From Bryum argenteum (taxonomy: Eukaryota > Streptophyta > Bryopsida > Bryales > Bryaceae): a stretch of 64,000 nt of DNA. The position numbers were made by a program, and so were the translations under genes. Of this stretch, positions 19,012 through 58,519 are shown piece after piece; position 1 is the first letter of the stretch; every line of letters begins with the position of its first letter. The stretch spans positions 24,642,364 through 24,706,363 of the forward strand of contig CM073322.1 in assembly GCA_037043015.1 (NCBI GenBank). The letters run 5' to 3'. A model generated the notes under the pieces. That model ran no database searches and was not told the origin of the DNA. It saw nothing but the letters and a program-made list of their open reading frames with translations.

Positions 19012-21200
19012 TTAGGGCCGGTTTACACTATGGTGGAGAAGGCCTCCGGTCGGTCAAGAATGCTTGGCCAAGACATGGTTATATGAGGCAAATGGTGGAT
19101 GTGCCGGAGAAGAATTAATGGCAATAAACAATTTCTTAACGAGTCTTGACCGGTTGTAGTCTAAACACCTAGAGGAGAAGTTTAGCGGTGGTGTCCACCG
19201 GAGAAGGCCACCGGTGAAGAGAAGTTCACCGAATGGTGACACTATCATGATAAAGAAAACTATATTCCCTACATGGACATTGTATCAAAAAAATTCAACA
19301 AATATTTGTTCATGGAGAATTATAATCTATATATATGGCAATTTTATTAAACCTTGAATCAATATGCCTATGTACAATCACATTGTGCTATAGAATGATA
19401 ACTTTCTTTGTAGATTTTCACTTTAAAAACTAAATTGAACATTCTATGGTGTTCAACCTTATGCAAAAAAATTGGAATCTCCAAATGTATTGTGAAATTT
19501 GACTCATTTAAGAAATTATTGTTTCCTTGGCTGGTGGAAATGAAGGCTTGTACCAATATAATGTTCAACGAGTAGAAAATAATAATGTTCAAAAATTATA
19601 TGTCAATATTGACAACTCTAATTCCATTACACTACAAAACTAATTATTTACCAAATAACAATTGTTTTTGGTACACATAATTCTGAAGTACTACCTCTCA
19701 AAATGTATTGTTCACCACTAGTGATTGCAGATAAATGCGCTTTTAACCCCTAAAAATCCAGGAAAACCGATTCGGTTTTCTGAGATTTCGGGCAGCTCAT
19801 TTTAAGCATTTAAATTGATATTTTTGCCTAAGATTTTTACTGGGTGCTCCCCATACAGTAATGTGTATGTGGTAAAATTTTCAAAGTCAAATTTTAATTT
19901 TATAACCTTCACCTAGAAATTTTAGGTTTCAAGTCCTAAACGGGCAGTTTAAAATAATTTTTTTTATTTTTTATTTTTTTAGAAATATGTTCATTACCAA
20001 ATTACTATTCAAATTCCAAAGTATCCAAAGTCAAAAAGTTTACCACTTTTACAAGGGCAGCCTCCAAAACTTTCAAAAACAATCTTCACAATTTCTAGTA
20101 ATTTTACAATTTTTTCTTTCAAAAATTTCCAAAATTCGAGATTTTGGATTTTTTCCAAGATTTTTTTTTTTCAAAATTCACATTATCATAAATGCACCTT
20201 CTCACCGTCAAGATTTTTCTCAAACTAAATATATCATACGTGGTGCTTGTTTTACTATATGGTTGTTTTTAGACCTTCTTTCATAAAATATTTTACATTA
20301 AGGTCAAAAAGTGGAATTGGTCTCTAAAATTTTGCATGAGCATACCCAACTTGATTACCTACATGAAAAAAAATGAGGGAAAAATATTTGGAATAACAAT
20401 CATCAAGTTGCCCTTGGCACCATTTAGACGATGCCTCTCACGCAGCGGCAAAAAAAAGTGTTGGTCAAACTTTGATTGTTATGATCTCACAAATGACAAA
20501 CATCCAACGGTTGAAATTTTGACCAGTCTTTTGTATACAAGTTAGGTACAAGATCTTACGGTTCAAAGTCTAAAACCAGAAAAAAAAGTTTCTCCATTTC
20601 CCCATTTCCCAACGAAGGTGAAAAATGGCAATTTTTGGTTCTGGAGGTCGAGGAAACCCCTGGATTTTTAGGGGTTAACTTAATGATACCATTTCAGTTC
20701 TAGCCCACTTTCGAAGGTAAAAATAAAATTGAAAATGATTTTCACTGCTATTTACACCCCCTTGAGGGGTATTTGAAATACCGAATGTATGCCATTAAAG
20801 TGAGTATAACAGTAGGACAAAGAAAAACCTACCGGGGTTACCTTCACTTGCACTGCTGTTAACTTGGGGCTAACTTCACTTGCACTGTAGTTCCATAAAA
20901 AGTGAAACTAGAAATGAGGAAGCAAGCACAAGGGTTTGCTATTTTGGACATTTAATGTGCAAGTTGGAGGAGAGAAAGGACAAGAAATATGTTCTCCGGA
21001 GAAGCCCTTGTTCAAAAAGTACCGCCACGTAAGCCGCCATGTCATTTTATCATCCATGACAAAAGTTGACCACCATTGCTTTCTTCACCAAGTTTAAACA
21101 CCCACCGGTCAAGAGTAGCATTTCCAACCAATCACAATTGAGAAACGCCCTTTTTTTCATGACCGGTGGACTTCTCCACCGTAGTGTAAACCGGCCCTTA
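19012..21200. mobile_element. 2.2-kb Tourist/PIF-Harbinger-like element (TTA target)
   Basis: The termini GGGCCGGTTTACACTATGGT (from 19015) and its inverted counterpart ACCGTAGTGTAAACCGGCCC type (to 21197) are flanked by TTA on both sides (19012-19014 and 21198-21200). Tourist/PIF-Harbinger elements typically show a 3-bp T(A/T)A duplication and G-rich ends. The interior has no transposase and holds the 936-bp TTAA element (19743-20678). The paralogous sequence at about 29675-29690 reads ccttaagtgcctatta, the uninterrupted target in the opposite orientation. Relatives are at 35824-36532 and 59514-59927. Confidence 0.85.
19743..20678. mobile_element. 936-bp TTAA-bounded element, copy 1
   Basis: The ends are TTAACCCCTAAAAATCCAGG and its exact complement, CCTGGATTTTTAGGGGTTAA, with flanking TTAA. 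Copy 2 at 57585-58519 is inverted and almost identical, so at least one insertion is recent. The short ORFs (for example 19987-20286) are low-complexity and resemble no transposase. It lies inside the Tourist-like element and so arrived later. Confidence 0.85.
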
Positions 21201-21209
21201 AGGTGTATA

Positions 21210-21485
21210 GTTATAAAGAGCGCATATATCATTAATTAATTAATGGCCTTTGGCCCATGGGTGAGAAAAATTGGGTTTCAGAGACCATTTTGTAATTTTT
21301 AGGGGAAGTGAGGAGATGCAATCGTTATGGGATAAATCCCCAATCCCATACTATCACTATGCCATACCATCACCATGCCATATCATCACTATGCCATGCC
21401 ATCACCATGACCCAGGACCCCATGACCCCAAGCCGTGCACACTACTTGCCCCCCTTGGACCCAGGCCTCTAATTAATTAATGCCG
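21210..21485. repeat. dispersed repeat R3 with ATTAATTAATTAATG ends, copy 1
   Basis: Contains an 18-bp ATGCCATACCATCACC-type minisatellite (about 21340-21410) and is bounded by attaattaattaatg-type words. An inverted copy lies at about 29404-29690. The left part overlaps the flank that the Tourist-like element entered. Confidence 0.65.
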
Positions 21486-21489
21486 CTGC

Positions 21490-23180
21490 ACGCAATTAGT
21501 GACTGTTTGTTTGACTTTAACTCTTTGGCCCCCTAAAGCTTCTTGTGTGTTTTTGGGAGCTTTGAAAGCTCAAAACTGTGAGCTAGGCAGGAGTAGCTTC
21601 ATAATCTTACTTTGGTAGTAGAAAATTTCAAAAATATCGCCGGGCCCTCTGGTGCTCTGGTTCCCAGTGTATTAACATGCAATTGATTAATACATTAATT
21701 GTTTCAAAAAAAAAAAAAAAAAAAAAAGCTCAAAACTGAACCGTTCATAGATAATTTTAGTTTCAAAAATATTTAGAAAATTAAAAATTACAAGCCAAGA
21801 GGAACGAAAAGTTGGGAAATCATGAGGTACTGCAACAATCAACTGGATGAGTTACTACAATAGTCAGAGCCTCCGGTTCATCTCTCTCCTTTGCGTAGGA
21901 TTTTCCAAAAACCAAAGAACTAATTTCAAACAAATCTATTTATGCCAAACAAACCTTATTTTTTCAAAAATAAATTAAAATATTCATTTGTTGAGGACTG
22001 AACATGCTATGGTGGTATAGTAACGTTCTACCCTCTATGTAAGGGGTGAGAACCTCTTTTTTTTTCTTTTTTTTTTAAAGTTTTTAAATTTTTTTTTTTC
22101 TAGGGCTGCCGATTGTAAGATCTTGTACCGCAGATTATTTTTTATTTAGTGGTCTCAAAATTGAACGTAGGAGGATTACCATTTGAGAGATCGTAACATT
22201 CAAAGTTTGTCTTTTGAGTTTTTTTGGGCATTGTGAATTTATTTTTTTGGAATTTTGAGGGTTGCCCTTGTAGAATTGGTAAGAGTTTCAACTCTGGACA
22301 CTTGGGAATGTGAATAGTGATTTGATTGTGATTGAATTCCCCTTTTCTCTTTTTTTAAAGAACTAAATCAAATTTGCCCAATTGTGGCCTGCAATCCAAG
22401 GATTGTCCTAGACAAATAAAAAATTGGAATTTGGCTTTGCAAATTTTACCACGTACAACTCATACGTCTTGCTACAATCATACCAAATTAAAATCCAAAA
22501 TTAAACCCTGCATCTAGGCTGCCCAAAATTGCTAAAATCCATTTTGAGTATTCAAGAGCTTGAGAAGTTAAGGACGAGTAGGCCAACCGGGACAATGAAA
22601 CATACCTGCTTATGACATTTCAGAGGCCTGATTACCAACTTTGATGAAGATCTTAAAGAGTTGATGAAGACATGTACAAATGGAGTTGTAAGATTAGGAA
22701 ACTTTTTGCAAAAATTCAACCAACGTACCCCATATTACAAGGTGCATGTGGGAAATTTGCAAAGTCAAATTTCAAATTTTGAAGTTTAAAATGCAACTTT
22801 TTGTTTCAAGCCCAAAACGGCCACAAAAGAAGTTAGTATTTTCAACATAATCTCTTACCAAAAATTTGAATTTCAGCCCTTGGGGTAGGCCAAAATAAAA
22901 TAAGTCATGTTCAATTCTTTTGTTCTTTTTTAAGAAATCTTTTCTTAACTAATTTTGTACTCAGATTTCCAAGCGACCCAAGTTGATATTTTTTACGAAC
23001 TCTACAAGGACAACTTTTAAAAATTACAATTGCTAATCTCAGTATTTTTAATATTCCATTTTACTTCATATTTCCCCTTTGTTAAATTTTGAGAAGAAGA
23101 AATTTTATGAATATTATTTTTCTTAAAATTCACAAAGTCATGAAGGTACCTTTTCTCACCCCATGCGACAGAGGTACGAG
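21490..23180. repeat. intergenic with degenerate repeat R2 copies
   Basis: No gene. 22050-22350 and 22430-23180 share words with the interior of the 936-bp family (ccgattgtaagatcttgtac, ccatttgagagatcgtaaca, gggttgcccttgtagaattg; the second block is in reverse). They look like old, strongly diverged relatives. A poly(A) run lies at about 21706-21726. Confidence 0.5.
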
Positions 23181-24676
23181 GAGCAGGAAAGGGGGTCACA
23201 TCTCAAAGTGCAAGGCCAGCACCAAAAAGCTGCTCTCAGGAAGGGGTAGGTCATTTTCATTGCACTTTCATGGCCACCAAAGAGTGGCAATATAATGATA
23301 TGCAAAAACCTATGCCAGTACCACAACACCCCAAATTTCACTTTTCAATTACTACTACAATTATTTATTTTATTTTTTCTTTAATCTTGTGAGCAGAAAT
23401 AGGGGTACACATCATACTCACTACAATACTCCGCTTCTCATCAAACCTTTTGAAGAGTCAAATCCGGATGTCAAAGCCACCTTTGTCATATCTAAAGGGC
23501 CCATATAAAACTAGCAAGTTATTGGTCGGAGTTTGTTGTGATGATGTGTGGTCATGTGAGACGAGGGGGATCTTTGCGTGCATTGTATGGGCCACTAGCC
23601 TCTATTGATTGAAAATTACGTCAACAAAGTACGCACTCGGATTTGGCATTCTCTTTTTGCTATATCGCACTAAAGGATGTGGTGTTCTCATTGTGAAAAA
23701 AGTGGGACACATGCCTCTTCCAAAAGCAAGGCATCTACTTCAAAATTGTGAGATATTTTGGGTACTTTCAATCCAAACATCCCTTACCACTTGTGAGCTT
23801 GTAAGCTCCAAAAGTGTACATGAAGCAAGCAACGTGTCAAATTTGTCTTCAAGGTGCTTTTGGTTTCATACTTCTCAAGTGAAGGGAATCAACAAGTTTG
23901 GCATTCTCAGAGTTTGGCAACCAATAATATTTAATGCTCTTTCAATTGCAAGAGACATTTTTATTCTAATGTGCAGATGTGAAATTTCTTGAAGAAGGAA
24001 TAGTTGAGGAATAAATTACAAGCCATTTTGCTCCTACAAAATGCAAGAGGTGAACAATGGTTCTTTCAAAACTATGATACTTTGAGCTTATTTTATGTTT
24101 TTCTATTTACTTATAGAGCAAAAAAGTTAGTTAGACTTGTGAGTGTTACAAGTACTTTGGAGCCCTTTTGACATCATATTGTTGTCACAAGGAAATTGAG
24201 TGAAATGTATAATAATGTAAAGAAAAAACCAACAAGATTTTTTGCCTACAACATTTCTAGGATTGTATGATTGAAAACTTTATTGAAAGTTGATACATTA
24301 GTCTACATAGAGGCATGACCCTCTTCTTACAAGTACAAGGTTGAGTATTTTAATTCCTAAGAGCATCGCCGCCCAAGGGTTGCACCATAGTATACCGTGG
24401 CTGCTTTTCTAAATACTATGCACAAATTATTATGGAACCTCACTCAATCTCCAACTGAGCCACATAGCAAATGATGGCAACCATTTGTAAGAGCTTGTGG
24501 ACAAATCAAGTCAAAAATAATAACAAAAGAAAGCTAAAATAGAAAAGTGAATATCTACTCACTAGACGCCAACATTGCGGGTGTTGGTGGAATTTTAGCA
24601 CCCTCACATGGCCCATAAATGCCCCCATGATAGTTCCTTGCAGGGCATACGCACAAAATTTGTCCAATCCTTGATC
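23181..24676. other. intergenic, no recognised gene
   Basis: An ORF of 127 codons at 23609-23992 (plus) has unbiased composition but no family features and no supporting neighbours. I do not call it a gene. Confidence 0.4.
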
Positions 24677-27600
24677 TAAGGTAGAATGACCTTAAACCGC
24701 GCAAATAAGAGATTCAGCATGGTTGTGGACCTCGTGTGTGGTTGTGGACCTCGTGTGTACTGTTTGTAATTTTTCTTGGATGGGAAAATAGGAGGGAGAG
24801 TGAATGCAAAAATTTTGAAAATAAAATAGCAAAAATTGAATTTACTACAAATTTTTGAAGTCAAAAGTGTACATGATCTTAAAGTGATCACTAGACTCTC
24901 CTTTTTATCCGGCAGACTAGTACTTTGTGGTGCTCACGCATCACTAGAGGAAAACAGTGATTTGTCCCGCGTTATTTCGCGTCAAAAGTGACGTTTACCC
25001 AGACTAGTCGAAATTAGTGTGGGTAACTTGACCAAAGTGACTTTCTGCATGTTAATCGGTTTAACATACTTCCGTCACTATTGACGTTGGTTTAACAGCG
25101 AGTGTCATAGTGACACTAATGGATTTTGGAGGAACGGAACCGCGTTAAAACGAACAGAGCCACGTCAACGTTGACATGTACGCCCCCGGGGGGGGGTAAC
25201 TTTAGCACTTCATTTTTTACCTTCTAGTAATTTTTAAATGATTAAATATATTCATGATCCACGCGTCGTGACGTTTCTTTTAACATTGATAACGTTTAAA
25301 GTGACATGGGCGACGTTCGATGTGTGTTACTTTTGACATATTCATAAATCCTACGTGGAATGCCTTGCTGATGTGGAAGGCTTATGTGGAGGATAGGGGT
25401 GACTAGGACAAGTTGGTGTTTGTCCGACGTGGATGTCAATAGTGACGTTGCCGTTTATTTTGACGCACAATTGTGTCAACATGTGTTTAAGAAAACGTAA
25501 TGACATAGCTGACGTGTCAAGTGCATTTATGATAGGGTGACGTGGCAGTTCGGGTTTGACTTGGTCAATGATCCTAGAGAGTGTCAATGTTGACGTGAAT
25601 GTCAAAAGTAACACATATTATTTTTAATTGTCTTTAGGGTTAGGGTTTGACCTACGGCGGCTAGGGTTTGACGCTTGTCAAAATTGACGTGCGTGTCTAA
25701 AAAGACATACGATATGTTAAACACCGATCCTAAAGATGTCATCATGGATGCGTTTCAATTGACGCATGGTTAACGCTAGCGAGTCATTCTCGACGTCGTG
25801 TTACTTGTATAACGTGAACGTGTCACTAGTGACATGATCACATCAACACAAGCATGTGAAAAAGACGTCTACTATGACGTCTAGAATAACGTCTTTTAGT
25901 CCGTTCGGAGGATAACTTTCATCGGGGTGGATGAGCAGGCGGCTAGGGTTAGCCGCCATAGTTAGGTCATGGTACTTTTAGGGAAGATATAAGCTAGAAT
26001 GTCACTCTTGCTTTCATTTCTACACATTTTGTGTTAGAGTTCTACAGTTTTAGAGATTAACATATTAGATTGTTAAAGTATGAGTTGTAGAGGTGTTGGA
26101 GTTTTACAAGTTTTTCTTCTTTCTTTGCAATTTCTCTTCTTCACATTCTGTGTTAGAGCTCTACAGTTTTAGAAAGTAGCATGTTAGATTGTTAAAGTAT
26201 GAGTTGTAGAGGTGTTGGAGTTTTACAAGTTTGTCTTCTTTTTTTGCAATTATTAGGTTGTTCAAGAGTTGCATTATGATGATCTCCATCACGGTTTGAT
26301 TGCATGATGTGCCTTATTAAACTCGGCGTGTCCGTGGTAATGTGTGTTGTGCGGATCAAGAAAAATCGAGCATGAGGAAACCGAGAAAGTCACTCTACGG
26401 CGGCTAGGGTTTCTGCATGAAAAGTGACGCGCCCGTCAAAAGTGACATAGGTTGTGTTAAACACTGTTTTTAGAGACGTCATCATATAGAGTGCTTGAAT
26501 GCGTCACTATTGACGCAAGATTAACGCTAGCGCGTCACTTTTGACGTAGTGTAACGCAAGGAGTACCCTAGCACACAGCACATATATGTAGCCTTTATGC
26601 TTTATGCTACTCAATACTTGCAACTTTGTACCGGTGGCTAATTTTCCATCTAATACAGCGAAAGCACTGACCAGGTTTATGTTGCACTCCATTTCGTGTA
26701 TGTTTACGTCCAGTGTGTTATGTTTGACGTTGCATTTACGTTATCGAATGTGTCATGTAACGTCACTTTTAACGTTTTCATTTCCGTCATAATGTGTCAT
26801 GTTGTATTTCTTTTGACACACGTCTGCCATCGAATTGCGTTGAATGGATGGCGTGGCGAACGTCATCCTTCATCTTGTCTCTTTACTTGAAACACGCTAA
26901 AACACGTGACATTCGTGTTTAAGTGCGTCAACTTTGACACGATGCCCTGTTTCTTTTCACACATAACTTGATAACGTGAATGTCACCCTCGCCTAAAGAC
27001 ACATCCAAAACGCGTTAAAACAAACGACATTTGTGTTTAACGATATTAAACAACGTCTAAGTATGTTTTGGAAATCGCGTTAAAACAAAGGACACAAGTG
27101 TTCCTCAACGTCAATGTGGACACTATCTCCTGTTTCTTTTGACACAAACTCCGAACTTCTTTCACATTCTAGGATGTGGCCACGTGTCACGATCTCAGCC
27201 ACCGAAATTTAAATGCCACATCAGATTTCCGACGCCACATCAGATCAGATTTCATCTATCACAAGGATGAAAACTTGTCCCACGTGGCATGTACAAACGC
27301 GGGAAAAGCTGACGTGGAAAGTAATTTACTTTCCAAGTTACTGACCCTCGGTAACTTACCCAAGTGGAAAAATGTCATTTTAACACTGCGTCATAAATCA
27401 TTTGTCCCCGTTAACATTTTTTAACACTACACGTTAAACTCAAAAGACGTCCGTGACATTTTTGATTTATTTGCGTCACTTTTTTTGTCCGCGTTAAACC
27501 ACGTTAAACCGCGTTAAAAACAACGTTAAAAACAGTGTCCGAGGACCCTGTTTTCCTCTAGTGCATGTAGCTAAAACTGTGCAAAAAGGTCCACGCCATG

Positions 27601-27748
27601 GGCGGCTATGCACCGTCAGATTTCACTATGCATCCTCACATTTCACAGCTGTTGTGCGTGCAATAAGGTCCACGCCATGAGCGGCTACAGGGGCGGTCTA
27701 CCCTTCCCTTATGGGGGGGGCCGCGCGGTTTAAGGTCATTCTACCTTA
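24677..27748. mobile_element. TIR element, TA target (mariner/Stowaway-like), copy carrying a CACTA insertion
   Basis: It has the same ends as the element at 6008-6471 (TA-AGGTAGAATGACC and GGTCATTCTACCT-TA) and the same sub-terminal sequence. It is 3.07 kb long because a 2619-bp CACTA-type element plus a 3-bp duplication is inserted at 24942-27563. Without it the host element would be about 450 bp. Confidence 0.85.
24942..27560. mobile_element. 2619-bp non-autonomous CACTA-type element
   Basis: The ends are CACTAGAGGAAAACAG and CTGTTTTCCTCTAGTG, as in CACTA (En/Spm, CMC) elements. The 3-bp duplication CAT (24939-24941 and 27561-27563) is confirmed by the uninterrupted copy at 6251-6253. No transposase ORF. 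The whole interior is crowded with short motifs of the TGACGT, GTCACTTT, AACGTT and GCGTTAAA types on both strands, far beyond the usual sub-terminal zone. It contains a tandem duplication of about 105 bp (26025-26130 and 26141-26252) and a second duplication of about 155 bp (25648-25803 and 26394-26555). Confidence 0.85.

Positions 27749-28665: not shown

Positions 28666-28701
<36 letters not shown>
28666..28701. repeat. A36 homopolymer
   Basis: An uninterrupted run of A, followed by further AT-rich R2-like sequence. Confidence 0.95.
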
Positions 28702-31795: not shown

Positions 31796-32165
31796 TTAAC
31801 CCTTAAACGCCCATGGGGTGTGAAACGGGCAGCCCAAAATTGGATCGCAACATCTTTTGGACTTGGGCATCATGAATAGTGCACTTTTTGAACAAGGGCA
31901 TCGTGAATGCACCAATCAATGATGAGCTTGCAACCTCCTGCAAGGTTATGTACAACCCCAACCTCGCTACCACAATCCTTTCAAAGCACAAAATCACTCA
32001 TACAAATTGTGATTTGAATTGTAAAATTTCACTTTTTGAATGCATCACAAGAAGGTGACCAATTTGACATCAAAATATAAGTGAAAAGTTGAGTACAGTG
32101 AGAGCTACAGAGATGATTCTGTTGGAAAGTGACCCCTCGGGTCACCTTGGGCGTTTAAGGGTTAA
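31796..32165. mobile_element. 370-bp TTAA-bounded element (TTAACCCTTAAACGCCC family), copy 1
   Basis: The termini TTAACCCTTAAACGCCCATG and TTGGGCGTTTAAGGGTTAA are inverted complements with TTAA at both ends. Copy 2 is at 50115-50515. The right-hand TTAA (32162-32165) is shared with a further TTAACCCCTAAAAT end. The ORF at 31803-31997 (minus) is non-homologous to any family I know. Confidence 0.8.
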
Positions 32166-34353: not shown

Positions 34354-34621
34354 TTAATCCCTAACTCTCCTTGTTGCAAAACGGTCTAAGTCTCAAAATT
34401 TGACCTGCCTTTAGATTAAGCTCAGAAAATCTCAATCCAAGCATTATTTAAAAGATTCAACCGTAAGATCTCAAAGTTCACTTGACATTCCTCTCACATA
34501 CCATATTTGAACCGTTCATTCTTCCTCATTTGTGAGATTATAATGGTCAAAGTTGGCTGACTTTTTCTCCTGCGGGAACCTCCAAAACCCGTTTCGGGTT
34601 TTAAGGAGAGTTAGGGGTTAA
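34354..34621. mobile_element. 268-bp TTAA-bounded MITE, copy 2
   Basis: Close copy of 7104-7370, with ends TTAATCCCTAACTCTCCTT and AAGGAGAGTTAGGGGTTAA. A lone TTAACCCTTAAATGTCC end of another element lies just upstream at 34242. Motif CATTTGTGAGATTATAATG at 34527-34545. Confidence 0.85.
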
Positions 34622-35879: not shown

Positions 35880-36102
35880 CTACACTAAATTTGATAATTA
35901 GTGTTAGATTATTATAAGATTTGAAAATGCTATAAGTGTTTACTTTTGTTTAAAAAAAATTACCAAGAGCATTGATTCTGATACTATATAAGGACCCCCA
36001 TCTTGGCCAACATAGTGGGTAAAATTATTGAACAACAGTAAAAACTTGTAACATGTTTATGTAAATTAGTGTATCTAACACTAATTATCAAATTTAGTGT
36101 AG
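35880..36102. mobile_element. 223-bp CTACACTAAA MITE, uninterrupted copy
   Basis: The ends are CTACACTAAATTTGATAATT and AATTATCAAATTTAGTGTAG. It is the unfilled reference for the copy at 36171-36497. Confidence 0.85.
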
Positions 36103-36170
36103 TAAATTTGATTGGTAGAAAGTGAAACTCTTGAAATTTGATTTGTTTAAATCGAATTTTGGTTGACCAA

Positions 36171-36497
36171 CTACACTAAATTTGATAATTAGTGTTAGAT
36201 ACACTAATTTACATAAACATGTTATAAGTTTTTACTGTTGTTCAATAATTTTACCCACTATATGGGTCAAGTTGGGGGTCCTTATATAGTATCAGAATCA
36301 ATGCTCTTGGTAAAAATTTTAAAACAAAAGTAAAAAATTATAGCATTTTCAAATCTTATACTCCCTCTGTCCCATTATGATTTTCCGGTAGGTTCTCTCA
36401 AATCTACCTTTGGAGGTAGATTTGAGAGAACCTACCGGAAAATCATAATGGGACAGAGGGAGTAATAATTTAACACTAATTATCAAATTTAGTGTAG
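36171..36497. mobile_element. CTACACTAAA MITE, inverted copy with nested hairpin
   Basis: 327 bp long. Subtracting the 102-bp nested element and one TA gives 223 bp, exactly the length of the copy at 35880-36102, to which it is inverted. Only 68 bp separate the two copies. Confidence 0.85.
36361..36462. mobile_element. 102-bp Stowaway-like MITE, perfect hairpin
   Basis: It starts CTCCCTCTGTCCCATTATGA, the classic Stowaway terminus. The two 49-nt arms are perfect complements around a 4-nt loop (ttgg). TA flanks both sides (36359-36360 and 36463-36464), and the uninterrupted sister element shows a single TA at this point. Perfect arms imply a very recent insertion. Confidence 0.95.
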
Positions 36498-42779: not shown

Positions 42780-44170
42780 CTAAAATAGTGTAACAAACAA
42801 CAAGATTTATTTTATGAACATACAATAAATTAGTGTAGACCTGTAGATGACATTTCTATAAAGATATGATTCCATACTACAATAGGAAAAAAAATAGTAG
42901 TCTCATAGGCCACTATGGAAAAGACTACAAATTTTCTAAGTCACACGATAGACTGAACTGCAAATCTTTCAAATCACAGTATAGAGTAGATTACCTATCT
43001 TTAGGACCAGTCGATTGAGAAGATTTTTGTTTACAAGCTACACAACGGATCAGAGTGCAGATTTTTGAAGCGAGACATGATTTAGACCACATATTTTCCA
43101 TGCCATACACAATTATTGGAATAACAAGAAATCTTCTTGGTCACACACGATCAATGGAATAAATATCAACTCTTTATAGCCACACACAATCAATAATATA
43201 GACAATTAATCTTTATAGCCACACCCGATCAATGGAATGAATAGCCGATCTTCATAGCCACACACAATCAATGGAATATGTTGCATATCTTTATGGCCAC
43301 AGAGGCTCAATGAAACATAGTGCAAATATTTTAAGCCACATACACTGAATAAATTAATCTCCAATTCTTCCACATTATCGATCATTCTAGATTATAGATT
43401 TTAAAAGCGACATAATTAAATAGAGTGCAAATCTTTCAACCCCACATGGAGTAGACTACCAATGTTTAAGTCCACTTGATGGAAACATTGCAAATCTTTG
43501 AAGCTACAATGGCAAAATGAGCAAATCTTTTATGTCACTAAGTCACACGATGATATCAAAAATATGTCTTTAAAGATACCAATATAATTGAGTAGTCTGT
43601 CACCAAAAGAAATAAGATTCCAATTGTTGATATGATAACCATTGTAGAAAAGTCGTTTTATAGGTCACAAGAAAATTAATGGCACATTATTCAAACTTTA
43701 ATAGATTAAGCTAGAAGTAATTCTAATCGCAATAAATTAAATCGTCACTCTTTTAAGCCACATGGTATAGACTACATGCCTGTAATAACACAATAAAATT
43801 CAAAACTCAGGTTTTGCATGCCAGAGCAGAATAGACTACACATCTTTCTTGCTACATTAGAATAAATTACAAGTTTTTAAGGACTTGACAACATAACCTA
43901 TATGTCTTCTATATCACGATAGAGTAAACCAATTGTTGTTTCTGTTACAATAGAACCAACCACATGTCTTTCATGGTATAAAAGAATGATTTGCAAGTCT
44001 TCAAGGAAGAACCATATAACCTATAGGTCTTTTATGCCACATGGGGAATAAACCACATGTCATTGATGTGATGAAATTAACCACAAGTCCACAACCCTTC
44101 TAGGCCATGATATAATCCACTACATGTCTCATTGGCCACGATAAAAGTAGACTACTAGGTACTTAAGGTA
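42780..44170. repeat. 1.4-kb strongly decayed tandem repeat
   Basis: The same theme recurs about every 45-60 bp across the whole stretch: a (g)ccaca-c-gatcaatggaata or gatagagtagactac segment, followed by gcaaatcttt- or catgtcttt-type words (for example 43141, 43192, 43252, 43302, 43425 and 43860-44100). Units are too diverged for a sure period. No gene. Confidence 0.55.
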
Positions 44171-49330: not shown

Positions 49331-50014
49331 GGGCTAGGACAAATCGATAAAAGAGGCCACCGGCTTATAAAGGTACATTATACATTATCCACCATTTCCT
49401 ATTTGCATTGCAACATCTTCTATCACTCGCCTTTGGCATCAACCACTTGAAAACATCAATCCTCATAGACTTGGATCCATGGGCTCAATAAAGGAGCTGC
49501 CTATGGTGTTCCATTTATTATAGTTTATTAGAACAAAGTCCAAGTTGCCTCCAAGGGAAACAAGCACAAACACATGTATCCAAGCTTGCTATTTTAGGTA
49601 TTTTAGGTATCGGATTCGCATTGATGTGAATTTTTTTAAAAAAAAAAATAAATAAATACATGATTTTTGAGTAGATGTTTCTCATTAATTTGCCGTTGGA
49701 TCTCAACTTTCTTTTTTGGGTTGAATTCAAATTCAAATCTTGTTTTTGTAGTAGAAACCTTGCCTCCATTCAAGATGTGAGGAAGTTATGGCATTGATTT
49801 GTGGAAGGAGCCTAGTTTTGGATATTATTTCCTCTCTAAATTTTCAGAGAAGTTTCACCATTATTTACGAAAAGAAATTTTCAAGGGTGTTATTGCGATG
49901 AAGAAGGCAAACATCTTTGTAGTTGATGATTTTCATCATTGCACTAAGTCTATCAGTAGCATATTCATTTCGAAATGGAAATGATGAGATTTTTCTCATC
50001 GTTCATGAAAAACT
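49331..50014. other. intergenic, no gene recognised
   Basis: Only short ORFs. The last part (gtttcaccattattt to ctcatcgttcatgaaaa) leads into the TTAA chain. Confidence 0.4.
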
Positions 50015-50118
50015 TTAACCTCTAAATGCTTTGGCTCATTTTGTAGCAAAAAAGTGTTATAAATAGTAAATAGAAACAAAGGTAAGTAATTCAGATGAGC
50101 GTACCATTTAGAGGTTAA
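50015..50118. mobile_element. 104-bp TTAA-bounded MITE, first of a chain
   Basis: The ends are TTAACCTCTAAATG and CATTTAGAGGTTAA, perfect complements. Its right TTAA (50115-50118) is also the left TTAA of the next element. Confidence 0.8.
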
Positions 50119-50515
50119 CCCTTAAACGCCCATGGGGTCTGAAACGGGCAGCCCAAAATCAGATCACAACATCTTTTGGACTTGGGCATCATGAATAGTG
50201 CACTTTTTGAACTTGGGCATCATGAATGGTGCACTTTTTGAACTTGGGCATCATGAATAGACCAATCAATGATGAGTTTGCAACCTCCTACAAGGTTATG
50301 TACAACCCCAACCTACCTACCACAATCCTTTCAAAGCACAAAATCATTCATACAAATTGTGATTTGAATTGTGAATTTTCACTTTTTGAATGCATCACAA
50401 GAAGGTGACCAGTTTGACATCAAAATATAAGTGAAATGTTGAGTACAGTGAGAGCTACAGGGAAGATTCTGTTGGAATCATGCCCCTCGGGCTTGGTTGG
50501 GCGTTTAAGGGTTAA
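50115..50515. mobile_element. 401-bp TTAA-bounded element (TTAACCCTTAAACGCCC family), second of the chain
   Basis: The ends are TTAACCCTTAAACGCCCATG and TTGGGCGTTTAAGGGTTAA. It is close to 31796-32165 but longer by about 30 bp, because a unit of the type acttgggcatcatgaat is tandemly repeated (three copies at 50178-50262 against two in the other element). Confidence 0.85.
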
Positions 50516-50758
50516 CCCCTAAAGGTTCTTGATGCAAAATTGTAAAATGGACATTCCCTTACTTCAGGCCTAAAAACTCTCAATCTAAGAATTATTTGAA
50601 AGATCCAATCATAGGATCTTGAAGTTAACTTAACCTTCCACTCACTTGCCAAAATGAACCGTTGATTCTTCTTCATTTGTGAGATTATAATGATCAAAGT
50701 TGGCTGAATTTTGGACTCCAAAAAGCAGTTTTCGCTTTCTTGGACCTTTAGGGGTTAA
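50512..50758. mobile_element. 247-bp TTAA-bounded MITE, third of the chain
   Basis: The ends are TTAACCCCTAAAGGTTCTTG and GGACCTTTAGGGGTTAA. The interior carries CATTTGTGAGATTATAATG (50674-50692) and a tcaaagttggctga continuation, shared with the 267-bp family despite different termini. Confidence 0.8.
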
Positions 50759-51789
50759 AGTCATCGTTCATGAAAATCAGTGGATATGCTCTAGTAGCGC
50801 CTAAAACACATATTATGCTTATCAAACCAAACATCTTCACACACATTTAACTTTGCAAATAATTCACACCAAGTATAAAAACCACGACAAACAACAAAAT
50901 TACATGCTTCGAAGTGAACAAGGTGCAAATGGCTTTAGCACTTTTCTCTAAGCAGTGGTCCTTAAAAGCATGAGCTTGCAATAATTCAGTTTCATAAACC
51001 AACCACACATGTGGTCACTTCATATTTATATTATGTTTCTTTTGCAGCCCCTAAAGTCGCGCAGCCTAATGAATCCATGAAGGGCATATACTTTGTGGCT
51101 TGGGGGCTTGGAGAATTTGATGCTGCTGCCCGGGGTAAAGCTGCCCGTGGATTACTTTGCTTTGCGGGGCGTGGAGTTTTACCTTATCTGAGTGACAGAC
51201 AAAGCTAGATTCACGGGATGTGACAAGCTTCACCTCGAAGGATGGGCCCAAGCTGGCTTGAGTGTTCTTCTTCATGATTATCAACTCCTCCCAACAAAAA
51301 GGAAAAAGGGGAAGTTCGTTTACCTCGCTCCTACATATCCTCCCTCCACCCATACTTTCATTCCATTTTCTCCCCATCATATCACGGAGAAACGGTACTA
51401 CCCAAGCAATAAGGGTCACTTTACACTATGGACGAAGAGTCATGACTTCGAAAATTAAATCATTTTCATGATCATGGCACTTGGTCAACAATACACTAAA
51501 TGTATATTGTCAAACTTTATTTAGTTCAAAGAAGAAAAAAAATAGTGAGCGTGTGTAATTTTGTGAGTTTTTGACTTTTAGACAAAATGTTTTTAGAGAT
51601 TGCATATACCTCAAATTATGACAATTTTTTTTTAAGAAAGAGATAAATATAACAGCACTAGTAAAAGCTTGCTTTTGTATACTTCACAGGTTGCCCCTGA
51701 AAAATGTGTGAAGTTCATTCAATTAGGTCACTTGGAAATTTGAGTAGAAATTTGCTTAAGAACATGTACCAAAAATAAAGTAAAAATAA

Positions 51790-51790
<1 letters not shown>
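50759..51790. other. intergenic; one-sided Tourist-like end at 51408
   Basis: TAAGGGTCACTTTACACTATGG-type sequence at 51408-51429 looks like one end of a Tourist-like element, but no partner end was found. The overlapping ORFs at 51011-51458 have no family features. Confidence 0.35.

Positions 51791-51861
<71 letters not shown>
51791..51861. repeat. long (TA)n microsatellite
   Basis: About 70 bases of uninterrupted AT dinucleotide repeat. Confidence 0.97.
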
Positions 51862-51867
<6 letters not shown>

Positions 51868-52469
51868 TAAAACACTTTGTTCTCGTTTGATTTGACCGGA
51901 TTTGAGAATTTTAGATATGAGAATTTGACTTTGTAAGTTTTACCAAATACACCTTTTATGTATCGCCATATTTACACCTAATTATTTCCTCAAATAAAAA
52001 TATACCACCCTTCATATAAGCTTGACAAAATAACGAAAAGTCATTTTGGCTTTTGAGAATCTTCACGGGTTGATTGTACACTTTTTAAAATTGTTTGTTG
52101 TAGATATGTCTCAATATGATGGTAACACCTCAATGTACCTATTGAGAGTGCTATAAGTGGTATTCCATTTTAGCAAAGTTTTGCCTTTTTTTTTTTCTTT
52201 TTTTTTTTTGTGTGTGTGTGACTTTGGCAACCTACATATGAATTTGAAGATTTTGGCACCATCCTTAGGTTTTGAACCATGTATTGGTGTTTTAAATCTT
52301 TTCATGACATTATTTTGTATTTAATACTATGTATGTTGGTTTATGTATCCGACTAGTATATGCCCGTGTCCTCTAGAGACTAAAAAAAAGAGGAGTATTT
52401 GATTAATTTGTCAGTAAGGTCCCCCTCATCCGGATGGATGAATTCTTTATTTGGTGCTCTTCAATAACT

Positions 52470-52830
52470 ACCTTCTATCCCCGGTTCCCTCGTTGATGGT
52501 CCCTCTCCTTTTTGAGATTTATAGCATGTCTTCCGTTCCCTCGTTCCCGATTCCCCGTCCTCTTCTGGTTCCCTATTATCTGCTTCCTTGTCTTTAAACC
52601 CTCATTCTTGGTTCCCATCTTTTATTCCCGGTTTTCCGTCCTCCAATTGCCCTTCTTAATTTCCACTATTCGTTCCTCCTTCTCATTATTTGTTCATGGT
52701 TCCCATCCTCCGTTCCCAATTCCTATGCTTTGTTTATGGTTCCTAATTCCCCTCTGACGTTCCCTTGATCTCCTGTTCACTCCTTTTATGCTCCCAATTT
52801 CATATTCCATATTCCTTGTCCCTTTGACTC
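52470..52830. repeat. degenerate GTTCCC-type pyrimidine-rich repeat
   Basis: Words such as cgttcccgattcccc, ggttccctattatc and cgttcccaattcc recur irregularly across 350 bp. The ORF at 52512-52757 (Phe/Pro-rich) is a by-product. Confidence 0.6.
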
Positions 52831-53239
52831 CTCCTTATATTATTGGGATCAAATAAACTCTAAATCAAAATCAAATACTGTGCTAGAGTCTGTAATATTT
52901 GACTTGCTTTCAAGAAGGCGAAACCTCTTAATGCCTTCGAGGAAATAAAAAACAACTTGCTTTTTGGGGGCAATTTTTCCTACCTCCAAAAACAACGCAT
53001 CCCTGTCCTTCCTTCAAACTTAGAGATAAGAATACCAAGTTCTATTCCACAAGGAATCAATACCACTCATAAGAGATTATCACAGAAGTGAAAAGAAAAG
53101 TTTTTAAAATTGAGGAGGACAAACATTGGTTCTACTCATTAACTTTTTAATTTAGATTGTTTCATAGAGGAACTGAAAGCTGTACTACCGTTCCATGAGA
53201 TGTGACAAAACATTATTCTCTCCGAGCCTGGATTCTGAG

Positions 53240-54240
53240 CAAAACAAGCATGTGGCGTCGGTAGCTTTACATCTGTGCCCTAAGAACCTTCTCCTCAAAG
53301 TACAAGTCAAGTCTAATGATCTCGCGTATATATTTTCTTGAGATGCAATTTTTGCCCCAACTTTTAGATTTTTTTAGACTTGTGTGCTCAAAAGCGGTTG
53401 GGGATTCAATTCCTCTCAAGAGGAGGGAGCCAAGTCCATGAGTTCTTGGGTGTCTTTGAAGAAGAAGCGAAGCGGATAATTTTACGATCCTTACTTGCAT
53501 ATTCGGAACCATGAAGGAGTTCAAGCCTTAACCTATCCTAGATGCTTATGAGGTTGAATTTCCCCATAATTTCAAAAGATATGAGGTTGATTGCGCGGGG
53601 CTCCTTCTATCCATTGACTTAGACATAGAAGGAGAACTTCCGATTGTTAGGAGCCTAAGGCGTATTAGAGTGGTAGAGACCACATACAACAAAGTGAAGA
53701 ATGAGTTAACTAGATGATGGTATGTTGGCATTCTTGAGAACCTCGGCTTTGAACTAGGCAAATGGCTTTGGGGGAATGATTGTTATCTATTTTGTTACAA
53801 TGTTAAGAAAGGTACATACCTCATTAACTCCCTTAACAAGCTTTGCAGACCTATTGCCGATAAATGCTATGCAGGTGGAAAGAGGTGTGGGAAAAGTCTA
53901 AACCCAAAAAGAAGCTGCTTTTATGTGGTCAGTTTATCACAAGGCAACTGCAGTTTAAGTTTGGAGAAACCAAATGTTCCCCTCAACAGATAAATATTGC
54001 GTGTGTTGTGACGCCATGGATTTGGATTCAGTTAAATTTAGGTTCCATTATTGCATTAAGGCCCAACATGTGTAGGATTTTGCGTAAGACCTTCTCTACT
54101 CCTCCATGGAAATTCCTAAAGTTAATGGCAAATTGGTTTGCCTCCTTTGGCCTCCTATGGAAGTTTTTTTGTAAAGGTGTGGAACTAGTTTGGAGGCAAA
54201 GCTTGCCGAACGGACGTTAGACTAAAGGAGGGACCGTCTA
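53240..54240 (+). pseudogene. possible relic of a non-LTR retrotransposon (weak)
   Basis: An ORF at 53864-54220 has RWKEVWEKSKPKKKLLLCGQ followed by RQLQFKFGETKC, faintly like the zinc-binding region behind LINE reverse transcriptases (W, W, PxKxKxFLW, then C). Preceding pieces such as LENLGFELGKWLWGNDC have frame changes. No reverse-transcriptase core is visible, so this is a guess. Confidence 0.25.
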
Positions 54241-54967
54241 AGTGTCTAAAGTTTTTTTACTATACAAACTAAGACTTGATTTGGGACCCAATCCAAGTCA
54301 TTGAATCCAAAATGGACTTTGGATGAAGAAGTTATGACTTTTCAAAGTTGCAACTTGTCATTTAAAATGTAGTTTCTCTACAGATTTAGGAGTTGAGATA
54401 ACCCCACATGTTATTCTTAAAAAGGAAATTGAGGTACCTATACAATAAGATTTAGGAACTTCCGACTAAGAATTTCTTACCATAGTTAGATGAGCAACAT
54501 GCTAACATGGAAGATGGTACTAACCACCTTCTGATTGGGGGCAATGAGCCCCAACCACCAAGCCAAGGCAACTTGTACCTCTATTCTTCTACACTCATAA
54601 TACTGATTGATGCTATATTTTTATTTGTGTAGTATTGAGATTTTACCTTAAAAGACTATCTACAAAGTAGTTGAAAGATGATAAAAAAAAAACAACTTTC
54701 GACACAATTCACAATTGGGCATCAAACTATTTATGAAGTTATCTCAATGACCTCCAATGTTGTCGATTGTTCATAATAGTTGGATGAAAACCTCAATGAC
54801 AACCACAATGACAAACACTACACAAAATCACAAGAAGTAAATTGTTGTTGCTCTAAAAGTTATTAAAAGCAATCTTGGAACTCACTACTAGTATTGCTAC
54901 ATGTTTTCCATTGTTAACATGTTGTGTTGAAGTTTGTAAATAGTGTACAATCAACATTGTAGTGTTC

Positions 54968-55250
54968 CAGTTTCCCTTTGCCCGGTGGCCATCGGGATAT
55001 TAGCATCACGAACGGACACTTCATTCACGCGGGCCCATCGGAATATCAACATCACGAACAGACACTTCATTCATGTGGGCCCATCCGAATATTAGCATCA
55101 CAAACAAGACACTTCATTCACGCGGGCCCATCGGAATATTAGCATCACGAACAGACACTTCATTCACAAGGCCCATCAAAATATTAGCATCACAAACGGA
55201 CACTTCATTCACGCCAGTCGGCCCCTTAGAAAGGGACCGGAGTTTCTATC
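54968..55250 (+). repeat. 46-bp minisatellite, five units
   Basis: The unit with aatattagcatcacgaac and gacacttcattcacgcggg occurs five times between about 54986 and 55215, with point differences (gcatcacgaac, acatcacgaac, gcatcacaaac). The flanks ccctttgcccggtggcc and agaaagggaccggagtttct also occur around a single inverted unit at 63800-63880. Confidence 0.9.
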
Positions 55251-55766
55251 TCCAATCAACGATATAATTACATTGCTTTGTTCAATGATGTAATATGCAA
55301 AATCAAAAGGTTATATGATGGAAAGGTTGGATCCACTTCACTTCAAGTCTCACCCGACGATTGAATGCCTTGAGCTGTACATGTACAGGATAAGTTATTT
55401 TGGGGAATCAGGAGTTGGGCAAATATGCAACCGACCCCCCAAGTTGGCCTAAAACAACCAAAAAGCAACGCCCATGCCTTTTTCGCACGGGACGCTTGGA
55501 CTTATCCAGCGGGGCAGGGTGCTGCCCGCGAGTGGGCATTGAAGTGCAGGCCCGGGGGGGGTCCAATAGACGGCCGCACATGGGAATGGGGCTGCCATTC
55601 ATCATGGAAAGGACAGGCGGCGGCAGACTCTACACCATTACTGTACTTGGAAAAGTGAAGGGCTGGCACTGACACTGCAGGCGGCTGGTATCATCCTATC
55701 CCTTCTCTTTTCCTCCCAATTGTTTTTACCCACAAATAATAACCATGTTAGGGCAGCAGCAGCAAA

Positions 55767-55792
55767 AGAGAGAGAGAGAGAGAGAGAGAGAG
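55767..55792. repeat. (AG)13 microsatellite
   Basis: Pure dinucleotide run in a locally GC-rich segment (55400-55980) whose ORFs overlap on both strands and look non-coding. Confidence 0.95.
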
Positions 55793-56186
55793 GGTGTTTT
55801 TATGTACATATTATTCATGAGACGAATCATGGTCCACTTGAGTATGCAGGACTCAAGGCAGGAACATTCCCCTCCCTCCCCACTCACTCACTCCCTGCTC
55901 TGCTCTGCCCTGCCCTGCCCGTGCCACTGCTTGCTCCACCTCCTTTTTGCCTCTTTCGGAGCATTACGCCACTTTTTCTCATTGCCACATCGATACAGAA
56001 TCACCCCATTTCTACATTGATCGATCTTCTTGTCCTTGGATTTTATTTGTCAACATGATTCATCCTTTGAGAGGCAGATGTCTTGCTTGGTTGTGATATC
56101 CACGGGATCTTGCCGAGTGCCGAATCTGTCCAAATGGAGGGAACTTGCGATGAAGGTTCACATGGAGTTTGTCAAGTGATCAAGTG

Positions 56187-56619
56187 CTGAGAGCATTCCC
56201 ACCCATCATGCCCTGAACTGAAAAAAGGATGAATAATAGTTCAGTTCAGGGCGGAAATGCCCCACCAACAGGCAAATCCCCCGAACTGAACTACTATTAA
56301 TCGTTTTTTTCTAGTTCAACCTGCAAATGCGAGCCCTTTTGCAGGGAAGAAGGCGAACCTGAAAACCGAATACGACAAAACCGATGTTCGTGTTGACCGA
56401 TGTTCGTGCTGGCCGATGTGCGTTTGGGGAGCAATGGCGCAGTTGCGAGTGGTCAAAATTTTATCTCAACCATGTTTTTTCACCCACTCTAACCTCAATC
56501 ATGAGGTCATGGGTGGGGCTCCTCCTCCGCCTTGACGATTCGGGGTGATTGAATTGATGATTTCAATTATTGAGTTGAGTTCAGGGCGCCCCCATGGGTG
56601 GGCATGCCCTGAGAGCATT
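56187..56619. mobile_element. TIR element with GCATnCCCACCCAT-type ends and an 11-bp flanking direct repeat
   Basis: The left end GCATTCCCACCCATCATGCC pairs with the inverted right end GGGTGGGCATGCC, and the CCTGAACT words pair further inside. CTGAGAGCATT occurs directly repeated at 56187-56197 and 56609-56619. The inner gaactgaa and gaactgaactactatta words are inverted repeats too. The superfamily (hAT or Mutator-like) is unclear. Confidence 0.5.
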
Positions 56620-56799
56620 GTCTGTCACCCATGGGCTCCATCGCATTCCGTGGATATCAAAGTTGAGGGTGCTTTTCCACATTCAGATCACAAAAAATTG
56701 TAAATGTCACACGTTCCCCTGACTACACTAAGCCTTGTTAATACACAAGAGTTGTTAATTAGTGTTACGAATGTGTAATTTTACAAATAAATTATTAAA

Positions 56800-57584
56800 A
56801 TTTTGAGATTTAGGAATATTTCCAAACTATTTTTTCTCAAAATTTAAAAAGTCACAAAGGCAACTACTTACTATTCCAAAAAAATCAGAAAATAAATATA
56901 TGTAACTTGGTGCATGTTTTCTTATATTGTTTTTTTTTAACCCTTTTTAGAAATCAATCTGCATAAAGGTCAAAAAAGCAGAATGAGTCTCTAAATTTGC
57001 ATGAGCATACCCACCTTGATTACATACATGGAAATAAATATGACCAAAAAATTTGGGGTTAGAATTTCCAAATTTCCCATTGCACCATAGAGACAATATC
57101 TCATAAATAATTTCCAAAAAAACTTTTTCACAAGCTTTGGGTGTTATGATCTTCCAAATGAATAACATCCACCGGTTAAAACTTGGAATAACAATTAGAA
57201 ATAGGACTAAACTCTAATGGCATAAGCCCCCTTTTTTAGCCTTCAAAACCATAACTCCGATCTTTTGACCGCTTTGCGCAAGTTGAGGTATGATTCAACT
57301 TTTTACTTTTTTAATATTTTCAATTGTAAGATCTTCAAAATGACAACTTGCACTCACATCACATCAACTATTGGATCTTTACTGTTTTGTGAGATGAAAG
57401 TTGATGTGTCAAGTTTTTTTGCAACCTTTGAAGCTTGCGCTTGTAAACTTTGAAGGCTGCCCTTGTAAAATTGGTAAACAGCTTGAACTTGGAATTTTTA
57501 AACTTTGACTAGTAGTATCACAATAAACACCCCCCCCCAAAAAAAGCACTAAAAGATGTTTATTTTTTGTTGGCTTTTTAGGCT
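56800..57584. repeat. diverged R2 sequence directly left of the 936-bp element
   Basis: Shows the gcatgagcatacccaccttg, gttatgatcttccaaatgaa and gctgcccttgtaaaattggt words of the 936-bp family in mixed order. An old, eroded relative. No gene. Confidence 0.5.
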
Positions 57585-58519
57585 TTAACCCCTAAAAATC
57601 CAGGGGTTTCCTCGACCTCCAGAACCAAAAACTGCCATTTTTCACCTTCGTTGGGAAATGGGGAAATGGAGAAACTTTTTTTTCCTGTTTTAGACTTTGA
57701 ACCGTAAGATCTTGTACCTAACTTGTATACAAAGAACTGGTCAAAATTTCAACCGTTGGATGTTTGTCATTTGTGAGATCATAACAATCAAAGTTTGACC
57801 AACACTTTTTTTTGCCGCTGCGTGAGAGGCATTGTCTAAATGGTGCCAAGGGCAACTTGATGATTGTTATTCCAAATATTTCTCCCTCATTTTTTTTCAT
57901 GTAGGTAATCAAGTTGGGTATGCTCATGCAAAATTTTAGAGACCAATTCCACTTTTTGACCTTAACGTAAAATATTTTATGAAAGAAGGTCTAAAAACAA
58001 CCATATAGTAAAACAAGCACCACGTATGATATATTTAGTTTGAGAAAAATCTCGACGGTGAGAAGGTGCATTTATGATAATGTGAATTTTGAAAAAAAAA
58101 ATCTTGGAAAAAATCCAAAATCTCGAATTTTGGCAATTTTTGAAAGAAAAAATTGTAAAATTACTAGAAATTGTGAAGATTGTTTTTGAAAGTTGTGGAG
58201 GCTGCCCTTGTAAAAGTGGTAAACGTTTTGACTTCGGATACTTTGGAATTTGAATAGTAATTTGGTAATGAACATATTTCTAAAAAAAAATAAAAAAAAA
58301 TAAAAAAATTTAAACTGCCCGTTTAGGACTTGAAACCTAAAATTTCTAGGTGAAGGTTATAAAATTAAAATTTGACTTTGAAAATTTTACCACATACACA
58401 TTACTGTATGGGGAGCACCCAATAAAAATCTTAGGCAAAAATATCAATTTAAATGCTTAAAATGAGCTGCCCGAAATCTCAGAAAACCGAATCGGTTTTC
58501 CTGGATTTTTAGGGGTTAA
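57585..58519. mobile_element. 935-bp TTAA-bounded element, copy 2 (inverted)
   Basis: Inverted, nearly identical copy of 19743-20678 with the same TTAACCCCTAAAAATCCAGG ends. The flanks outside TTAA differ (ggct before, aaac after), so these are independent insertions rather than a segmental duplication. Confidence 0.88.

Follow-up and report, generated by a model that had tools for sequence, protein, structure and literature searches.

The Bryum argenteum window analysed here, a stretch of 64,000 nucleotides, carries eight short elements bounded by TTAA, and raises the question of which transposons they derive from and which enzymes moved them. We consider, with a probability of roughly 94%, that they are internally deleted, non-autonomous piggyBac MITEs, part of a large land-plant radiation that comprises several lineages and has been mobile recently, with transposases acting in trans.

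All eight elements named in a preliminary description of the locus were found at their coordinates, each bounded by TTAA on either side and with inverted termini, although the span given there, 19743-58519, omits the element at 7104. Their ends had been described as CCC or CCT in type, which holds for 14 of the 16; the two others begin TCC, with TTAATCCC instead of TTAACCC at the right of 7104-7370 and the left of 34354-34621. End and sequence comparison groups the elements into about five families, in agreement with the minimum of five previously proposed, and all but one are read on the forward strand. Family A comprises 7104-7370 (267 bp; ends TTAACCCCTAACTCTCC and TTAATCCCTAACTCTCC) and 34354-34621 (268 bp), the latter 93% identical to 7104-7351. 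Family B is represented by 31796-32165 (370 bp; end TTAACCCTTAAACGCCC) and by 50115-50515 (401 bp), which shares 91% identity with 31855-32154. Family C (50512-50758, 247 bp; end TTAACCCCTAAAGGT) is similar on the inside to both family A copies, and family D (50015-50118, 104 bp; end TTAACCTCTAAATG) has 14-bp perfect inverted ends. These last two flank 50115-50515 in a chain (50015-50758) of three adjoining elements, neighbours having a single TTAA in common. Family E consists of 19743-20678 (936 bp; end TTAACCCCTAAAAATCCAGG) and, in opposite orientation on the reverse strand, 57585-58519 (935 bp), with complementary arms of 95-97% identity. Among the best 40 genome matches of each query, itself included, identity ranges from 95% to 100% for 7104-7370 (265-267 of 267 bp covered), and from 97% to 100% for both 31796-32165 and 19743-20678.

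The window was scanned for pairs of TTAA at a spacing of 60-1500 bp that carry inverted arms of 9 bp with no more than one mismatch, low-complexity arms being removed; this returned nine matches, namely, the eight elements and one out-of-register match within 31796-32165. The identical scan with other palindromic cores gave 22 matches for AATT, 6 for TATA, 5 for ATAT, 4 for CATG and 0-2 for the remaining eleven. Since other cores reach comparable counts in this AT-rich DNA, the number of TTAA pairs is not special by itself; the C-rich arms are. In comparison with 100 second-order Markov simulations, the window with the low-complexity filter off holds 10 TTAA pairs where the simulated mean is 0.71 and the maximum 5; when arms must start [CT]C[CT], it holds 8, the simulated mean being 0.04 and the maximum 1. 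Genome-wide, TTAACCCCTAA occurs 17,696 times versus 317 for its reversed control and TTAACCCTTAA 11,206 times versus 428, that is, 28,902 versus 745 together. The longer ends behave likewise, with 3,298 occurrences of the 17-bp end of 31796-32165 and 1,066 of the 20-bp end of 19743-20678, versus 0 in control for each.

In line with the preliminary description, no transposase was detected in the window, tblastn giving no transposase fragment there (best E 0.22). In the 258.8-Mb genome, 116 scored matches to DDE_Tnp_1_7 (PF13843) were obtained among 775 candidates (best E 7.4e-82), while the PF13843 search of 14 control genomes gave no match. Two transposases were compared with solved structures, and both match piggyBac and piggyBat: P0001 (locus L051, 886 aa; PF13843 at 1.3e-82) at 2e-29 for piggyBac 6x67 and 7.4e-24 for piggyBat 9c0f, and the L058 transposase at about 1e-31 for each. 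In an alignment of nine sequences, some of which are closely related to one another, D561, D640 and D753 (P0001 numbering) do not vary, and against 6x67 they fall on piggyBac residues that we take to be the catalytic ones. Most of the aligned transposases end in a Cys/His-rich tail, with no Pfam zinc finger above the cut-off. At least five deeply diverged lineages are present, only about 30-40% identical to one another, and four of them include full-length elements of about 5-6.4 kb. The uninterrupted frames, found at seven loci, measure 867-1187 aa from stop to stop. In addition, 10 of the 11 long loci examined (out of 116 scored) carry, ahead of the transposase, a conserved domain of about 100 aa that belongs to no recognised family; 58 copies of this domain have one identical score, and only eight of these have a listed transposase domain downstream.

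Of these 11 loci, nine hold a complete element, about 5-6.4 kb long and bounded on both sides by TTAACCC-type ends, and six of the nine have an uninterrupted transposase frame; L053 and L057 lack a complete pair of ends, and the frame is interrupted in L052, L053, L054 and L073. The eight full-length elements measured have ends of 17-22 bp, TTAA included, with up to 2 mismatches, and a TTAACCC[CT]TAA core is common to most of the nine. The end regions of L051 and L056 are without inverted subterminal repeats, the left end of L056 having two direct repeat pairs, one of 17 bp (88%) and one of 11 bp. Inverted ends of the window type and transposases flanked by them thus both exist in the genome, and the autonomous partner that had been placed elsewhere is matched by full-length elements with like ends that encode PF13843 transposases.

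How closely are the short elements tied to these full-length ones? In blastn comparison with the nine, seven of the eight window elements resemble them beyond the end motif; these seven are short and non-coding and have ends and subterminal sequence as in a transposase-bearing element, which is what defines a MITE. Family B corresponds exactly to one lineage, the 17-bp ends of 31796-32165 being identical to those of L051/L052 on both sides; its end regions (40-43 and 33 bp) align to L051/L052 at 81-83%, and those of 50115-50515 at 84-89%. Families A, C and E are each related to several full-length elements (L055, L056, L073, L074). In 7104-7370, a stretch of 103 bp matches the left part of L056 at 76%, and 34354-34621 resembles L056, L074 and L073 both internally and at the right end. 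The family C element agrees with the right end of L055 at 24 of 25 bp and also matches L073, L056 and L074, while the family E copies match L073 at 77%, over 251 bp for 19743-20678 (67% across its first 161 bp) and over 253 bp for 57585-58519. For family D, the comparison gave nothing at E 0.01, the end motif alone being common, and none of the nine full-length elements compared carries the ends of family A, C, D or E in full.

We propose that the transposases of full-length elements would bind the ends of the short elements, then excise and reinsert them in trans, with a lineage preference that may be set by the bases following TTAACCC and by subterminal sequence. Each short family could instead, while still piggyBac-derived, be moved mainly by transposases of another lineage, in which case matching ends would not name the real partner. 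Such cross-mobilisation is a possibility to be taken seriously, though we lean against it: several full-length elements resemble families A, C and E, none of the nine having exactly their ends, and the core is common to most of them, but exact partners may lie among the remainder of the 116 scored loci, and family B agrees with one lineage over 17 bp at both ends.

With regard to target sites, TTAA is present at both ends in 30 of 30 family E loci, all being full-length matches to a query that has TTAA at its own ends. The transposase-bearing L056 (5.8 kb) has a gapless empty counterpart in L018, 100% identical over 124 bp and with one TTAA, and others in L016 and L031 at 99.2%; TTAA is kept in four of its seven empty-site matches. 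L018 lies in turn in a site reading TTAACCC, TTAA and GCGGGCC in succession, whose uninterrupted version adjoins L056. Empty sites that align without gaps and carry one TTAA thus occur for L056 as well as for the host of L018, and indicate a 4-bp duplication, not one of 3 bp. More diverged relatives are less regular. A candidate empty-site relative of the insertion place of L011, a family E copy, lies within the window at 59642-59747 (reverse strand); as the sole match to the joined L011 flanks, it is 84% identical over 107 bp, with a single-base gap near the site and a single TTAA kept. The family B copy in L031 has 34 empty-site matches of up to 85%, TTAA being present in none and the best four reading TTTT, while L052 has a match with TTAG at the site (82%), and a possible empty counterpart of 7104-7370 in L007 reads TTGA (79%). 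Flanks that are not TTAA duplications, which the preliminary description had named as counter-evidence, were seen only as changed site bases in such diverged relatives. One query in this comparison matched itself.

By these sequence comparisons, at least one transposase-bearing element has moved recently. Among the 31 family E copies compared, divergence averages 2.3%, or 1.3% when measured against the majority, values biased towards youth because the copies are the best matches of one query. It is rather unlikely that the system, though recent on the evolutionary scale, is now extinct, with no transposase still functional. Stops occur in 23 of the 116 domain matches (with further ones in a separate check) and four of the 11 long loci are interrupted, but the other 93 matches have no internal stop, the nearest empty-site relatives of L056 are 99-100% identical, and one identical score recurs in 58 copies of the upstream domain.

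Kolobok, Sola3 and PIF/Harbinger also insert at TTAA or at TTA/TAA, and the elements might belong to one of these superfamilies, the piggyBac transposases being unrelated bystanders. A TTAA target is by itself no proof of piggyBac, and PIF/Harbinger (Tourist) elements with TAA/TTA duplications are a common MITE type in plants according to the accessible text of PMC10004981. We regard this reading as very improbable: like ends bracket PF13843 transposases in nine of 11 loci, seven of the eight window elements have sequence beyond the end motif in common with full-length elements, and the duplication at gapless empty sites is of 4 bp. A Tourist identity was rejected for the same TTAA unit, which differs from a 3-bp TAA/TTA duplication. 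The 4-bp TTAA duplication, CCY ends, PF13843 within the ends and the DDD triad are all features of the piggyBac superfamily seen here; a cysteine-rich, zinc-binding C-terminal domain and precise excision that leaves no footprint are further traits of that superfamily. The non-autonomous piggyBac-type reading of the preliminary description is upheld by transposases within like ends and by TTAA duplication at empty sites.

The PF13843 matches are spread over all of contigs C1-C11 (7-44 Mb), which also bear light-harvesting-type genes, and an Lhca2-type protein of this genome scores 409-445 bits against 8htu, 7xqp, 6l35 and 7ksq, presumably Physcomitrium patens structures, and at most 380 against the chains of other entries. 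By this protein the host lies closest to a moss, and is most likely one itself. Contamination, for example by small moss-dwelling animals, may come to mind since piggyBac is best known from animals, but is hardly credible for matches on these contigs and with F-box/kelch, LRR and aldehyde dehydrogenase genes sitting among the elements in the window.

The view that such elements are seldom reported from land plants is borne out only in part. No described plant piggyBac family was found in the literature searched (land plants, angiosperms, bryophytes, Viridiplantae), most subscription papers, including Bouallegue 2017, being outside reach. Passing mentions do exist in the accessible text of PMC8086355 (citing Bouallegue 2017), PMC10813416 and PMC10794571, along with an entry in a fern repeat table (PMC6890710) and one in a list of angiosperm MITE superfamilies (PMC10004981).

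We tentatively suggest that mosses might host an old, still radiating piggyBac branch with its own architecture, in which a separately encoded or spliced upstream helical domain of about 100 aa (ORF1 domain), of no recognised family, is kept across lineages and possibly self-amplified in a very recent, homogeneous family. Should this domain help to bind ends or to choose lineage-specific partners, it would add a new component to machinery that has been studied in depth. piggyBac is a standard, moth-derived tool of genome engineering, and what is known of its natural history comes chiefly from animals. A plant genome that combines five or more diverged transposase lineages, end motifs in the tens of thousands, and filled and empty sites that are almost identical would make piggyBac biology testable in a plant, including its arrival time, descent versus horizontal transfer, silencing, and use as a plant-native clean tagging tool.

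Compared with piggyBac (6x67/6x68, which we take to be that of Trichoplusia ni) and piggyBat (9c0f), the moss system has the same DDE_Tnp_1_7 domain, aligned catalytic aspartates, TTAA target and CCC-type short inverted ends. However, its frames are longer (867-1187 aa versus chains of 594 and 578 aa), the N-terminal parts are divergent and accompanied by the upstream conserved domain, and the L051 and L056 end regions show no inverted subterminal repeats. Animal piggyBac MITEs are short TTAA-bounded derivatives more numerous than transposase copies; the moss elements are likewise TTAA-bounded and outnumber transposase copies, but differ in their plant host and in the coexistence of several families with a common TTAACCC[CT]TAA core. 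Finally, the moss elements resemble the Tourist (PIF/Harbinger) and Stowaway (Tc1/mariner) MITEs in size, high copy number, inverted ends and plant host, whereas their target site duplication is TTAA, as opposed to TAA/TTA and TA, respectively, and the transposase inside matching ends is of the piggyBac type.

All eight elements proposed from the window were recovered in place, with an exact TTAA at both ends and inverted termini: 7104-7370 and 34354-34621 (family A), 31796-32165 and 50115-50515 (family B), 50512-50758 (family C), 50015-50118 (family D), and 19743-20678 and 57585-58519 (family E). The CCC- or CCT-type ends ascribed to all of them in the preliminary description hold for 14 of 16 termini, the other two beginning TTAAT. 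Self-comparison of the window united 7104 with 34354, 31796 with 50115 and 19743 with 57585, while 50512 and 50015 stood apart from these three families, the former having internal sequence in common with family A. Together, the elements cover approximately 3.5 kb (5.5%) of the window. An independent scan for TTAA pairs returned nine hits, namely the eight elements and one out-of-register pair; other palindromic cores also gave pairs in this AT-rich window (AATT 22, TATA 6, ATAT 5). TTAA pairs with arms beginning [CT]C[CT] numbered 8, where 100 simulations gave 0.04 on average and never more than 1; without the arm condition the count was 10, against a simulated average of 0.71 and at most 5.

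At 50015-50758, neighbouring elements overlap by exactly 4 bp, i.e., a single TTAA, and same-family, same-strand chains also occur in the assembly (G000) at C3:24745075-24745810, C7:11991839-11992349 and C6:10818316-10818852. These abutting chains look as if terminal TTAAs had been reused as targets. The window also harbours a 1006-aa open frame (612-3632) with at least 17 tandem leucine-rich units of 141 bp (47 aa) of the disease-resistance type, a foldback (36359-36464) with 51-bp perfect arms starting TACTCCCTCTGTCCC, resembling Stowaway elements and adjoined by a 191-bp inverted repeat (35913-36360), and short tandem arrays at 43124-43350 and 54969-55211, with units of 39 bp and about 46 bp.

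Putative autonomous partners, expected elsewhere, were located in the same genome. A search with the PF13843 (DDE_Tnp_1_7) profile gave at least 116 scored matches among 775 candidates (best E 7.4e-82) on contigs C1-C11, 93 of the 116 listed being free of internal stops, and none in 14 control genomes. Eleven of the 116 listed loci were retrieved (8-9 kb each), and in nine the transposase lies within paired TTAACCC-type ends: TTAACCCTTAA... at L051, L052 and L054, TTAACCCCTAA... at L055, L056, L073 and L074, TTAACCCCTCAAGGCCCATG (20 bp, perfect) at L058, and TTAACCCCAAAG at L075. L053 has one end and L057 none. The frame is unbroken in six of the nine, and broken in L052, L054 and L073, as also in L053. 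The 886-aa L051 protein (P0001) matches PF13843 at 1.3e-82, the solved piggyBac at 2e-29 and piggyBat at 7.4e-24; its genome search gave 58 match rows (50-100% identity) from 51 of 914 candidates. Five lineages are represented (L051; L055/L056 and kin; L057; L058; L075), mostly 29-41% identical pairwise, with L055 and L056 sharing 68%. All three catalytic aspartates are invariant in the nine aligned sequences, several of which are closely related.

All window elements except 50015 resemble full-length elements beyond the end motif. Family B carries on both sides the 17-bp ends of L051/L052, together with a stretch of similar end sequence of 33-45 bp. In family E, identity to L073 is 77% across 251 bp close to one end and 67% across the first 161 bp at the opposite end; its matches to L074, L056 and L055 are weaker. 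Family A aligns with L056 (76% over 103 bp), and family C with the L055 right end (24/25 bp), with further matches to L073, L056 and L074. None of families A, C and E has a single best partner, and their exact ends are absent from all nine full-length elements read. Such short-to-long matches look like the pattern of internal-deletion derivatives.

In the 258.8-Mb assembly (25 contigs), TTAACCCCTAA is present 17,696 times and its reversed control 317 times; for TTAACCCTTAA the figures are 11,206 and 428. The two motifs would correspond to about 14,000 elements if all ends were paired, a figure that unpaired ends would raise and that leaves variant ends outside. The family B 17-bp end occurs 3,298 times and the family E 20-bp end 1,066 times, against 0 for either control. 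Three window elements searched genome-wide gave 4,110, 3,088 and 2,104 first-look candidates; the best 40 rows per query, which include the window copy itself and are followed by some weaker rows, span nearly the whole element at 97-100% identity for two and 95-100% for one.

With regard to the target site, TTAA bounds each of the 30 retrieved family E loci, which had been chosen as full-length hits to a TTAA-ended query. Joined flanks of 68 candidate elements were compared with the fetched DNA, and six queries found a spanning match, one of them a self-match. Across 124 bp, the L056 flanks are 100% identical to L018 and 99.2% identical to L016 and L031, gapless and with a single TTAA; L018 itself sits within TTAACCC/TTAA/GCGGGCC, a site that is unbroken beside L056. 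These empty counterparts show that L056, a 5,758-bp transposase-bearing element, moved recently into a repeat whose other copies are still empty. TTAA is retained in four of seven L056 matches, and in the match of L011, a family E copy, to window 59642-59747 (84%). It is altered at the matches of L052 (82%, TTAG) and window 7104 (79%, TTGA), and lacking from all 34 matches (up to 85%) of the family B copy at L031, the top four reading TTTT. At such divergence, altered sites could reflect drift. Divergence among 31 family E copies averages 2.3% (0.3-3.6%), and that from the majority 1.3%, values biased young since the copies are the best hits of one query; on these comparisons, the L056 empty site is more recent than the divergence of these copies.

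Upstream of the transposase, a separate open frame (ORF1) encodes a conserved domain of about 100 aa in 10 of the 11 long loci (L051, L052, L054-L058 and L073-L075; tblastn, E 7e-6 or better), L053 being the one where tblastn did not find it. L055, L056 and L074 have AG/GT...CAG sites at comparable positions between the two frames, with phases that fail to join them. The domain alignment took in nine loci, and the structure predicted from five members is helical (mean pLDDT 82.6, pTM 0.73); Pfam, NCBIfam and PHROGs gave no convincing family, and fold searches no clear relative. A genome search with one member gave at least 150 scored matches among 369 candidates. Of the 150 matches listed, 35 are followed by a listed transposase domain at a distance of 1.0-1.7 kb on the same strand, and for none of the 150 does such a domain lie within 4 kb in the wrong position or orientation; conversely, 35 of 116 listed transposase matches have a listed ORF1 domain upstream. 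Fifty-eight matches, on C2-C11, share one identical score, which looks like a very recent burst. Eight of them are followed, at 1,263-1,265 bp, by a listed transposase domain, and the other 50 may have lost it or may carry one with a lower score; the burst family is perhaps a derivative with ORF1 and without transposase.

As for the host, 90 PF00504 (light-harvesting) matches point to a green plant, a family that also matches Synechococcus among the control genomes. An Lhca2-type protein scores 445, 421, 419 and 409 bits against 8htu, 7xqp, 6l35 and 7ksq, which we take to be Physcomitrium patens structures, followed by another 8htu chain (391 bits) and the next entry (380 bits). For a major LHCII protein, 8htu and 7xqp lead among ordinary-length chains, after one 620-residue chain (9vfj_2). 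A moss is the best reading of these scores. Strong PF00504 matches also lie in tandem on C5 and C6, and tandem clusters of weak matches (C5 8.16-8.41 Mb, C5 14.73-14.76 Mb, C2 25.06-25.09 Mb) look like the expanded ELIP genes found in desiccation-tolerant plants.

Passages in PMC8086355, PMC10813416 and PMC10794571 place piggyBac-like elements in plants, the first naming Bouallegue 2017 as its source; a passage in PMC10004981 includes PiggyBac among angiosperm MITE superfamilies, and a fern table in PMC6890710 gives 1,230 piggyBac fragments. Since plant presence is thus stated in print, but the literature searched yielded no plant family described with transposase, ends and target site, the kind of element is already known, and what looks new is its host and scale. 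The upstream domain, judged from the loci of this genome, may make these elements a variant of that known kind.
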